Positions 3,345 to 37,418 of a stretch of 39,179 nt of DNA are shown in pieces (position 1 is the first letter of the stretch; every line of letters starts with the position of its first letter). Below the pieces are notes generated by a model that saw only the letters and a list, made by a program, of their open reading frames with translations, was not told the origin of the DNA and searched no databases. The position numbers were made by a program, and so were the translations under genes. The stretch covers positions 1 to 39,179 of the forward strand of contig CALFDH010000037.1 of NCBI GenBank assembly GCA_937950405.1, read 5' to 3'. The DNA comes from an uncultured Meiothermus sp. GTDB taxonomy: Bacteria; Deinococcota; Deinococci; Deinococcales; Thermaceae.

Positions 3345-3500
3345 CCCCAATCCCGAGTGATTTAGTGCGGATTCTTCCCGTTCCGCACGTAAATTCTACC
3401 GCTTTACCCTCAGGACATTCAGCATCCTGGCAAGCGTCGTGGGTTTTAGGTCGTACTAAACTGGGGAATCAGCCCTGAACACACCTTATCGGTGAGCGGG

Positions 3501-3695
3501 CTATGCAGTTCTGCCCTGAACTGCTTTTTCGGATTGATGACGTTTTACCGCGTTTCCCACATTTACGCTACACGCGGTGCAGCGTAAATTACCCCACATG
3601 CCATAGCTTCCAAAGGATGCTGTAGGGGGTATTCGTGGGAACCGCTCTAATCGTTTAGCACACAGTCGGACAAATGCTTTTACAGATGTATCCAT
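3501..3695 (-). CDS. hypothetical 64-residue frame, doubtful
   Basis: A minus-strand frame starting ATG GAT ACA has no clear ribosome binding site. The product contains one CxxC pair (RCTACS) near its middle and no other feature I recognise. A short cysteine-containing tail followed by structured non-coding DNA would fit the 3' remnant of an insertion sequence of the tnpB type, but the catalytic motifs that would prove this are absent. It may not be a gene at all. Confidence 0.2.
   Translation of the reverse strand: MDTSVKAFVRLCAKRLERFPRIPPTASFGSYGMWGNLRCTACSVNVGNAVKRHQSEKAVQGRTA
3505..3529 (+). terminator. intrinsic terminator-like hairpin
   Basis: A perfect 7-bp stem (GCAGTTC with GAACTGC) closes a 6-base loop and is followed directly by five T on the plus strand. 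No plus-strand gene ends here. It may end an unannotated small RNA that begins after the hexamer TAAACT near 3456. Confidence 0.5.
3561..3589. repeat. 29-base near-perfect palindrome
   Basis: ATTTACGCT at 3561-3569 is mirrored by AGCGTAAAT at 3581-3589, and CAC by GTG inside them around a GCG centre. It may be an operator or the end of a decayed mobile element. Confidence 0.5.
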
Positions 3696-3893: not shown

Positions 3894-3953
3894 CGGGGCC
3901 ATAGCTCATGGAACCTATCGAAGTGTATGGGTATCTCTACGACGCGGTATTTA

Positions 3954-4064
3954 TACCGAATCTGCTCAGAAGTGATCCAAAAGTGATATCCAAGTCCCTC
4001 GGATGCGCCCCCAGGCGCGGCAAGGGAGGGGTACGTTTAGCGCCGCTCACGCGCAGAGTTGGTA
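3954..4064 (+). mobile_element. MITE-like repeat family A, copy 2
   Basis: This 111-bp copy runs from TACCGAATCTGC to GCAGAGTTGGTA. Its last base directly abuts the stop codon (4065-4067) of the minus-strand DUF4388 gene, so the insertion defines the boundary of that gene's 3' end. Confidence 0.9.
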
Positions 4065-5111
4065 TTAGATTGGCCGCTTGACAACGGAGAGGGCCGAGAG
4101 CAAATCTTCTTCGCCAAAGGGTTTGGGGATATGGGTGACTCGAGCGTTTTTGACCCAGAACCCCCTGGGGGGCTGCTCCGCAACCAGCCAGATGGGCAGG
4201 AACCGCCCGTTGGGTAAGGCCCGCAGTTGGCGTACCTTGTCGGGTAGGTCGGCGCCCTCGAGCAGCACGCCGTGGAGCCGGTGGTGCTCCAGGATGCGTT
4301 TGGCGCTCTCCAGGTCGGGGGGCAGCATGACCCGGTAGCGGTGGCGCTCGAGGGTGACCAGCAGGAGCCGCCGGATCAGGTTGGAGTCGCACAGCACCAT
4401 CAGCAGGGGGTCGTGGGGGCGCACGTCGGCTTCCATCAGAATGCCCCGGCTTTTGAGTTCGTAGAGCAGATGGTAGACCTGCTCCTCGGGCAGGTCGCAT
4501 TCCAGCGCCACCGAGCGGGCCCGCTTGACCCCGTCTATGGCTTCCAGCACCGTCCAGGCATCGGGCGAGAGGGCGTGGCGGGTAGGGTCGCCGGCCAGTT
4601 GTAGCACGGTTTCGGGTTCTACCTTGCCCCGCATCCACTCATCCAGGCGGCGCAGGGCCTCCATCAAAATGGTGCTGGTATCGGTGATGCCCGGCAGCAG
4701 CACCTGCGAGGCGTCTATGGGCGGGCTCTCGGCCACCAGCTCGCCTTCCGGCTGGCTCAGGATGGTGGCCAGGGCCTCGAGGATTTGGGCGTGTAGCACG
4801 TCGTTGAGCTCGTCCTCGGTGACCATTTTCTGCTGCAGGGCCAGAAAGCCCAGGGGGGTTCCGGGGTTCTCCTGTTGCTGGTATTTGACCAGCTCCTGAA
4901 CCTGCTCGAGGGTCAGGTAATCGAAGCGCACCAGGTATTCGCCTAGGTGGGGGCCGGGGTGGGTCTGGATATAGGCGATTTTGCCCTCGCGGATGTGAAT
5001 ACGCCCCTTCAACTTGGGGCAGGTAATATTGATGACCGCATTTTTGCGGCCTGCCTCGAAGGCCCGCAGCAGGTCTCCGAGTTCAATTTCGTCTAATCTG
5101 GCCCGAATCAC
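4065..5111 (-). CDS. DUF4388 protein with a degenerate receiver domain
   Basis: The 348-residue soluble protein begins with a DUF4388 (PATAN-type) region at about residues 5-110, including the usual AVINITCPKLKGRIHIREGK-like core and a helical continuation. DUF4388 modules occur in signalling proteins linked to two-component systems and motility. The last 110 residues look like a response-regulator receiver: an acidic start (VLCDSN), a strand ending VLLEG where the phosphorylated Asp should be, and PKPF with the conserved Lys. The phospho-site position is Glu, so it probably is not phosphorylated and may be a constitutive pseudo-receiver. A family A element abuts the stop codon, so the very C-terminus could have been altered. 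It probably acts in cytoplasmic signalling; the partner is unknown. Confidence 0.75.
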   Translation of the reverse strand: MIRARLDEIELGDLLRAFEAGRKNAVINITCPKLKGRIHIREGKIAYIQTHPGPHLGEYLVRFDYLTLEQVQELVKYQQQENPGTPLGFLALQQKMVTEDELNDVLHAQILEALATILSQPEGELVAESPPIDASQVLLPGITDTSTILMEALRRLDEWMRGKVEPETVLQLAGDPTRHALSPDAWTVLEAIDGVKRARSVALECDLPEEQVYHLLYELKSRGILMEADVRPHDPLLMVLCDSNLIRRLLLVTLERHRYRVMLPPDLESAKRILEHHRLHGVLLEGADLPDKVRQLRALPNGRFLPIWLVAEQPPRGFWVKNARVTHIPKPFGEEDLLSALSVVKRPI

Positions 5112-9834: not shown

Positions 9835-9879
9835 ACTTTTGTTGGAGGGTTTCTTGCGAGGAGGCTATTGGCCTACGAA

Positions 9880-9990
9880 TACCAAATCTGCCCAGAAGTG
9901 AACCAAAAGCGATATACAACTCCCCCGGACGCGCCCCCTGGCGCGGCAAGTGAGGGTCGCGTTTAGCGCCGCTCACGCGCAGAGTTGGTA
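9880..9990 (+). mobile_element. MITE-like repeat family A, copy 3
   Basis: This 111-bp copy runs from TACCAAATCTGC to GCAGAGTTGGTA, bounded by TA. It lies between the esterase gene and the end of the mrp operon. Confidence 0.9.
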
Positions 9991-10102
9991 GAAGTAATCC
10001 AGAAGGGTGTCGCCCATGCGGGGGCTCGAGGGGTAATCTGAGCTTGCCCTGTGGTTTTGCTTCAGGGTCGCAATGGAAAATACGATGATCTGAACGGCTT
10101 TC

Positions 10103-17254: not shown

Positions 17255-17409
17255 TACCAGATTTGGTTAGTTCGTCACCTTTTGGTGACGAACTAACCCG
17301 ACTAAAAGGAGACGCTTTCTTCGCCGACCGAAGGGAGGGGTGTGCTCTAGGATTCAAAAAGATAGCCTCTGATATGTCGATTAGTATGACTATCTTTTTG
17401 AATCCGGTA
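17255..17409 (+). mobile_element. MITE-like repeat family B, copy 1
   Basis: This 155-bp element starts TACCAGATTTGG and ends AATCCGGTA, flanked by TA. It contains two hairpins: GGTTAGTTCGTCACC with its exact complement around a TTTT loop, and GGATTCAAAAAGATAG with its exact complement. It lies upstream of the lysN-like gene. The following 127 bases up to the dNTPase gene show nothing I can name. Confidence 0.88.
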
Positions 17410-20307: not shown

Positions 20308-20338
20308 GCGGTTTCTGTTGGTTGACCCTTTGCTTCAC

Positions 20339-20632
20339 CGGGCTCTTATCATTTGCATGAACACCGTTGTTGCAACCCCTCATCCTTACGACACCGGACT
20401 GCCGTCAAAGCTGTTTCATACTAGATTCGGTTAGTTCGTTACCGAATGGTAACGAACTAACCCGACCGAAGGGAGGGGTGTGCTCTAGGATTCAAAAAGA
20501 TAGCCCCCTGGGGGCTTTTGGTTTTGCAAAGTACCTTTTTGAATCCGGTATTATTCGGCAATACAAGTACCAAACTTGCCGGCAGTGTCGACGCCCTCTT
20601 CCACAGGCAAAGGGGAGAACGATAAAAGCCCG
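20339..20632 (+). mobile_element. MITE-like repeat family C, copy 1, interrupted by a family B element
   Basis: Ends CGGGCTCTTATC and GATAAAAGCCCG are inverted repeats. Flanking 10-base direct repeats TTTGCTTCAC (20329-20338) and TTCGTTTCAC (20633-20642) agree at eight of ten positions and look like an aged target-site duplication. The family core of about 162 bp, shared with copies at 34340 and 37268, is split by family B copy 2 at 20419-20550. Confidence 0.85.
20419..20550 (+). mobile_element. MITE-like repeat family B, copy 2, nested in family C copy 1
   Basis: This 132-bp element runs from TACTAGATTCGG to GAATCCGGTA. Its first hairpin pairs GGTTAGTTCGTTACC with GGTAACGAACTAACC around GAAT. 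It interrupts family C copy 1, between the parts that in copy 2 of family C are continuous around 34411. Confidence 0.9.
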
Positions 20633-20653
20633 TTCGTTTCACTGTAGGGACAT

Positions 20654-21368: not shown

Positions 21369-21562
21369 TACCAGATTCGGTTAGTTCGCTACCGAATGGT
21401 AACGAACTAACCCGACCGAAGTTATCCGGGTAGCGGAGGGCGATACCGCCCCTTGGAAGAAAGACGCTTTCTTCGCCGACCAAAGGGAGGGGTGTGCTCT
21501 AGAATTCAAAAAGATAGCCCCTGGGGCTTTTGGTTTGGTGAAGTATCTTTTTGAATCCGGTA
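21369..21562 (+). mobile_element. MITE-like repeat family B, copy 3 (long form)
   Basis: This 194-bp copy has ends TACCAGATTCGG and GAATCCGGTA and the two family hairpins. It carries an additional module of about 60 bases in the middle (from TTATCCGGGTAGCGG to GACGCTTTCTTCGCC), shared only with copy 5 and in part with copy 1. It lies 11 bases from the stop codon of fabF. Confidence 0.88.
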
Positions 21563-30437: not shown

Positions 30438-30563
30438 TACCGGATTCAAAAAGATAATCACCCAAACCAGAGATTTTCAGAGGCTATCTTTTTGAATCCT
30501 AGAGCACTCCCTTCGGTCGGGTTAGTTCGCCGCCGTTCAGCGACGAACTAACCGAATCTGGTA
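30438..30563 (-). mobile_element. MITE-like repeat family B, copy 4 (inverted)
   Basis: This 126-bp copy, the shortest, runs TACCGGATTC to GAATCTGGTA. Its first hairpin (read on the minus strand) pairs GGTTAGTTCGTCGC with GCGGCGAACTAACC, different from the other copies yet still paired. Confidence 0.88.
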
Positions 30564-30675: not shown

Positions 30676-30687
30676 TGGAGATACTCA

Positions 30688-30798
30688 TACCAAATCTGCT
30701 CTGAAGTGACCCAAAAGCGATATACAAGTCCCTCGGACGCGCCCCCTGGCGCGGCAAGGGAGGGGCGCGCTTAGCGCCGCTCACGCGCAGAGTTGGTA
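30688..30798 (+). mobile_element. MITE-like repeat family A, copy 4
   Basis: This 111-bp copy runs from TACCAAATCTGC to GCAGAGTTGGTA, bounded by TA. It lies 124 bases upstream of fabH, so the fabH promoter must lie in or after it. I see no clear -35/-10 pair between 30799 and 30910. Confidence 0.9.
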
Positions 30799-30922
30799 TT
30801 AGGAAGATGAAACGGGCTCATCATCTGGACTTGGTTCAAGCCGCATCCCGGCGCGAAAGTGTGCTGGGGTGTTATCTTTGTTGGAGTGCCCAGAGCTTTA
30901 TGGGCGGTTTTAGGAGGCAACG

Positions 30923-32933: not shown

Positions 32934-33135
32934 TACCGGATTCAAAAAGATACTTCACCAAACCAAAAAAACCAGGGGTTATCTTTTTGAATCCTAGAAT
33001 CCTAGAGCACACCCCTCCCTTCGGTTGGCGAAGAAAGCGTCTTTCTTCCAAGGGGCGGTATCGCCCTCCGCTACGCGGATAACTTCGGTCGGGCTAGATC
33101 GTCACCATTCGGTAATGAACTAACCGAATCTGGTA
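32934..33135 (-). mobile_element. MITE-like repeat family B, copy 5 (long, inverted)
   Basis: This 202-bp copy lies between fabD and fabG. It has ends TACCGGATTC and GAATCTGGTA, both hairpins (the first with two mismatches), and the extra central module also seen in copy 3. If its hairpins stop transcription, fabG and acpP need their own promoter. Confidence 0.88.
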
Positions 33136-34328: not shown

Positions 34329-34339
34329 CGCTGGATGTG

Positions 34340-34505
34340 CAGGCTCTTATTATTTGTACAGACATCGTTGTGGTAACCCCTCGCTTGGCGACACCGGGTT
34401 ACTGCTAGAAATGTTTTATTCGGCAAAATAGGCACTGAACTAACCGGCGGTGTCGGTACCCTCTCCCGAAAGGGGAGAGGGAAAAGGGAAAACGACATAA
34501 GCCTG
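34340..34505 (+). mobile_element. MITE-like repeat family C, copy 2, with perfect 10-bp target duplication
   Basis: The 166-bp element runs from CAGGCTCTTAT to ATAAGCCTG. It is flanked by identical 10-base direct repeats GCTGGATGTG at 34330-34339 and 34506-34515, the mark of transposition. An inner hairpin CTCTCCC/GGGAGAG lies near 34461-34480. No coding region. Confidence 0.92.
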
Positions 34506-34597
34506 GCTGGATGTGGTAGACACCAAGTGCTGCGGGATGCTATCTTGAGGCGTCTGGGAGTTTTCTGAGGTGGCCCATGTTGTGCGTCCGCAGGTCT

Positions 34598-35860: not shown

Positions 35861-35989
35861 TACCAAACTAACCTGAACCCCTTTCCTTCTCCCCTTGCGG
35901 GAGAAGGTGGCGACACCCCGCCAGCAGTCTAGGAGAATAGTGTTGGAGACGCCATTAACTGCATTTGGGGTGTCGCCGGATGAGGGGTA
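35861..35989. mobile_element. diverged MITE-like element related to family C
   Basis: The stretch begins TACCAAACTAACC and ends GGGGTA. Its inner parts match reversed family C in order: a CTCCCC/GGGAG hairpin, GACACC, then GGTGTCGCC and GAGGGGT. GGCGACACCCC near 35909 is mirrored by GGGGTGTCGCC near 35967. The typical CAGGCTC ends are missing. Outer bases TGGCAT and ATGCCA are also inverted. From 35990 to 36093 I see only structured GC-rich sequence before the SDR gene. Confidence 0.55.
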
Positions 35990-36093
35990 TAAGAATGCCA
36001 CTCAAAAATAACTATCCGGGTATATTCGCTACTATAGCCATCGGCCCGCTAGTGAAGCGGCCAGGGCATTGGAATGGTGCTGGCCGATTTCCG

Positions 36094-37267: not shown

Positions 37268-37418
37268 CAGGCTCTTATCGTTATCGTTGCAACCCCTCAA
37301 CCGACGACGTTGGGTTGCCGCTAGAACCGCTTAATCGGCCAAATGAATACCATTAGCTGGTGGCGTCGCCGCTCTCTTCTGCAAGGGGAGAGGGAAATGG
37401 GAAAAAGATAAAAGCCTG
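37268..37418 (+). mobile_element. MITE-like repeat family C, copy 3, at the acuC stop codon
   Basis: The 151-bp element has ends CAGGCTCTTATC and AAAAGCCTG. Flanking 10-base repeats TTCAATGCCA (37258-37267) and TTCAAAGCCA (37419-37428) agree at nine of ten positions. The right repeat contains the acuC stop codon (37420-37422), so the target was the very end of that gene. Confidence 0.9.

Follow-up and report, generated by a model that had tools for sequence, protein, structure and literature searches.

A short repeat of one family (B) lying inside a repeat of another family (C) raises the question of whether the two were stacked by successive insertions, in which order, and why B sits at the same base in other copies of C. 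The locus belongs to a stretch of 39,179 nucleotides (the window), which is contig C37 in the 2.89-Mb draft assembly of a Meiothermus-type bacterium from hot springs. All the top named relatives of the gene adjoining the nest are from Meiothermus, and an Rfam search of the window gave a tRNA as the only match.

Structure and order of the nested insertion

The features of the nest and the other copies of both families discussed here are collected in Table 1. The limits given by the initial annotation for C copy 1 and for the B copy inside it were exact to the base; its description of the C flanks as near-identical 10-base direct repeats holds for the repeats, their identity being 8 of 10 bases. 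The nested B is bordered by TCA on the left (20416-20418) and by TTA on the right, a slightly decayed 3-bp duplication. The junctions were analysed in an alignment that took in the two B-free C copies of the window (34340-34505 and 37268-37418) and two unfilled copies from other contigs: C breaks off at the left end of B and continues from TTATTCGGCA on the right with no bases lost, the two halves rejoining cleanly at the B ends with a single TTA left, indicating that B is younger than C copy 1. The order claimed by the initial annotation (C first, B later) was borne out by these clean junctions, including those in the alignment of the three C copies that it had proposed as a check, and halves failing to join at the B ends were not observed. 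The insertion of B inside an older C is confirmed, and B arrived later than each C copy that it interrupts. The nest is a well-documented but ordinary case of stacked transposons. A search of relatives, also proposed by the initial annotation, was informative in part: the composite is absent from the orthologous place in SKYG110, an uncultured MAG, M. hypogaeus and M. rufus, and the flanking intergenic DNA there is unalignable, leaving no exact empty site to be read.

Table 1 Coordinates in the window of the nested locus and of other family B and family C copies.
Feature	Position	Strand	Remarks
C copy 1, left target duplication	20329..20338	.	TTTGCTTCAC; 8/10 match to 20633-20642
C copy 1, whole	20339..20632	+	CGGGCTCTTATC...GATAAAAGCCCG
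C copy 1, left part	20339..20418	+	ends in B target TCA (ancestrally TTA)
Family B MITE inside C, 132 bp	20419..20550	+	reads TACTAGATTCGG...TTTTTGAATCCGGTA; ends TACTAGATTC / GAATCCGGTA
Inner palindrome of B	20429..20462	+	GGTTAGTTCGTTACC GAAT GGTAACGAACTAACC; co-varying stem across copies
TTA, right copy of the 3-bp target duplication of B	20551..20553	.	
C copy 1, right part	20551..20632	+	
C copy 1, right target duplication	20633..20642	.	TTCGTTTCAC
Family B copy	17255..17409	+	TAA/TAA duplication
Family B copy, long variant	21369..21562	+	TCA/TCA
Family B copy	30438..30563	-	TTA/TTA duplication
Family B copy, long variant, between fabD and fabG	32934..33135	-	two relatives empty, single TGA
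C copy 2, without B	34340..34505	+	perfect 10-bp duplication GCTGGATGTG at 34330-34339, 34506-34515
C copy 3, without B, 151 bp	37268..37418	+	9/10 duplication TTCAATGCCA / TTCAAAGCCA

Two MITE families and their movement

Family B is a short, non-coding MITE of roughly 125 bp, some variants reaching 202 bp; it has terminal inverted repeats (TACCRGATTC at the ends) and duplicates 3 bp of its target, of the form TNA. Around 145 right ends of B were found in this genome (3 mismatches or fewer), versus 1 for a reversed control pattern. Copies of B and C were read from stretches fetched from the genome, in which all but some 45 of the B ends were read completely. The 100 full B copies that were read carry an exact 3-bp duplication in 67 cases, 65 of them TTA, TAA, TCA or TGA. 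The composite, used as a query, matched 15 of the 18 genomes of the genus, almost always over its B part; among plasmid records, the only matches were B-like, in two Meiothermus/Allomeiothermus plasmids. The intergenic space between fabD and fabG reads ACATGAGACC with one TGA in two other members of the genus, and CATGA-B-TGAGACC here. These orthologous empty sites, each with one copy of the target, are a clean, independent proof that B moves. The mobility that the initial annotation had deduced from the nest was consequently upheld, and it is better supported by the TNA duplications and the empty fabD-fabG site than by the nest alone.

Several other features of B were observed. Genome G015 carries a different, short B variant between fabD and fabG (L295, around 2460-2586), whose insertion point and orientation match those of the window copy, a long variant to which it is 81% identical; G003 and G009 are empty there. 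Either this base was hit a second time, independently, or one B was replaced by another. The long B downstream of fabF (21369-21562) is also found at the same place in M. hypogaeus (L290, around 3406-3642) in a continuous alignment, so its insertion probably predates the split of that species. In the B stem, 8 of the 26 pairs predicted show compensatory changes in the arms. The inner hairpin has a tip that occurs in either orientation (ACCGAATGGT versus ACCATTCGGT; L062:1021-1146 and L198:301-426, also L051, L066, L171 and L058), a difference seen even where sister copies are nearly identical, as though the hairpin were flipping.

Family C is also a short, non-coding MITE with terminal inverted repeats (roughly 165 bp, typically 165-166 bp, ends CAGGCTCTTATC/GATAAAAGCCTG), and its target duplications are of 9-10 bp: flank pairs matching in at least 8 of 9 bases were found in 17 of 43 full-length copies, whereas shuffling the pairs gives an expectation of 0.5. 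With a profile built up from the window copy, more than 50 C copies, mostly full-length, were retrieved in the stretches fetched from this genome. Many of them are 95-98% alike, indicating that the family was recently active. The C family is also large in G009, a genome of the same genus, and other members contain a small number of diverged copies. Two further groups of repeats were noticed: the repeat at 35861-36024 (minus strand) and those at L029, L032 and L038 share the C interior (ACCCCTCATCCGGCGACACC...GGTGTCGCCACCTTCTCCCGCAAGGGGAGAAGGAAAGGGG) but have other ends, being a family related to C with different termini; and a repeat of about 120 bp, neither B nor C, occurs at 1216-1334, 3948-4071, 9874-9997 and 30682-30805 with 83-95% identity.

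Repeated insertion at one base of C

B lies at exactly the base used in the nest in three more C copies of this genome: two forward copies, with junctions identical to that of the nest (C56:31291 and C151:1737), and one reversed copy (C56:4006-4233). All four B insertions are directly before TTCGGC. A fifth C copy carries B in its left terminal repeat, with a TCA duplication (L022; C117:3308). The initial annotation had read the nest as one ordering event; the order stands, but a single event does not account for four C copies that share one insertion base, with B reversed in one, nor for another C copy with B elsewhere. The same B-in-C junction was searched for in other genomes of the genus and none was found.

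The recurrence could be explained by a single nested insertion, the C+B composite having then been transposed as a unit to other loci. In its favour, the three forward loci are alike in junction and orientation, and each composite is bordered by a decayed C-type repeat of its own. However, trees of the C halves reject one clade for the three forward composites (AU p = 0.00013, lnL loss 27), unfilled copies separating them, and unit transposition is thereby rejected for all three together. In the B tree, forcing them into one clade costs lnL 34 (p = 0.08 over 125 columns, not significant at 0.05), and the B of C151 falls among different B copies. For the pair formed by the nest and C56:31291, the evidence against one origin is only marginal (p = 0.049 in the C tree and 0.53 in the B tree), and these two composites could share one insertion. 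Transposition as a unit cannot yield the fourth case, with B reversed at the same base, and as an account of all the composites it is very unlikely. Multi-copy families can convert each other, and B might have been spread by gene conversion between C copies; this predicts sister B copies, whereas the B of each composite has nearer relatives outside C, and conversion is unable to invert B relative to C. We regard it as extremely improbable. With the C halves not forming one clade and the B tree pointing in the same direction, independent hits of B on the same base of C are supported at least three times, and probably four.

The other question is why this base is chosen. Recognition of C itself, or of the tip of its hairpin, by B or its transposase, as some insertion sequences recognise REP palindromes, has in its favour that the predicted C fold, whose stability exceeds that of all 200 shuffled versions, places the base used in its terminal loop. 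But the 63 remaining B targets show no more structure than 600 TNA sites taken as controls (MFE -8.6 in B targets versus -9.3 in controls; unpaired TSD 0.48 versus 0.45), and a rough estimate from the fraction of intergenic DNA that C makes up gives about 5 B insertions expected in C, as many as were observed. A symmetrised target matrix was built from 62 B sites outside C and then applied to the C copies. B prefers a TNA that has A or T at a distance of two bases on each side, and the matrix, trained with no C sites, ranks the used TTA first in all seven older-subfamily C copies tested (5.5-8.2 bits); each of these copies has 7-9 TNA sites, and a fraction of 0.41-0.81 of their total weight falls on that TTA. 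Ordinary target preference is thus sufficient for the repeated hits, and recognition of C or its hairpin has little chance of being the cause. The young C copy that was tested has no TNA at that place, its centre reading TTGTATTTGG, as in the other young copies listed. It is conceivable, with a slim chance of being right, that the young, recently active subfamily lost the preferred TTA (TTTTATTCGG to TTGTATTTGG) in an arms race of two MITE families, in which the loss may have been favoured because insertions of B disable C.

The explanation that we consider highly probable is the stacking of two unrelated MITE families, C first and then B, carried by a transposase acting in trans into a preferred TTA, a base that was hit repeatedly. 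C inserted first, upstream of the aminotransferase gene, making the 9-10 bp target duplication seen in its flanks; a transposase supplied in trans would have moved B, and C likewise. B then entered the TTA near the middle of C, duplicating it, as read from the junctions, and the same TTA was struck in both orientations. The cause on this explanation is the target preference of B, for which the used TTA is the top-ranking site in the older C subfamily, and special recognition of C or its hairpin is not required.

Candidate transposases and known systems

The 62 transposase loci fetched from members of the genus, which are a sample, include no gene bounded by B or C ends. IS5-family transposases (IS1031/IS427 groups) mobilise MITEs with TNA duplications, and B resembles such MITEs in its terminal inverted repeats and 3-bp TNA duplication, which we take to be the hallmark of one IS5 subgroup and to point to an IS5-type enzyme. 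Unlike them, B has its duplication but not its ends in common with an IS5-family element in the loci examined: none of the 60 scanned, a sample of all matches, shares its ends. One IS5-family candidate partner from G015, L230, was rejected, having ends of its own (GAGGCTGTCGTAAAAG) and being inserted at the end of a B copy. This insertion sequence (L230:1315-2480, TGA duplication) is another nest, an insertion sequence in B.

IS4-family elements (IS50 and IS10 groups) have MITEs with 9-12 bp duplications, and the 9-10 bp duplications of C are similar, presumably pointing to an IS4-type enzyme. The C end CAGGCTCTTATC appears to us to resemble the IS50 end only in its CTCTTAT core. Unlike the IS50 group, C shares no ends with the Tn5-type genes, which were rejected as its partner: both loci of the genus, the only ones with such genes, are without C ends. 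ISTth2 is listed as an IS4/IS10 element with a 9-bp repeat (PMC6352166).

No description of the B and C families in Meiothermus was found in the papers that could be searched, and both look undescribed. Together, they leave in Meiothermus genomes a record from which the order of movements can be read, made of nests, duplications and empty sites. Through its repeated hits on a single C base, B provides a natural measurement of its own target preference; these hits are also a caution, since a common nested junction alone does not mean one common event.

The closest parallel is IS1111, which repeatedly inserts at one place of the multi-copy QMITE2 in Coxiella burnetii (PMC5896051; PMC10969869). 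In both cases a MITE family, here C, serves as the insertion hotspot; they differ in that IS1111 is a whole insertion sequence recognising a palindrome, whereas B is small, makes a 3-bp TNA duplication and needs no more than a plain sequence preference. Insertion sequences targeting REP palindromes are also known (PMC1525189), and C is likewise a palindromic extragenic repeat bearing an insertion; there, however, the palindrome is the target, whereas the other targets of B are neither palindromic nor structured. B in C is a fresh example of an element repeatedly hitting one site of a MITE, with a simpler cause.
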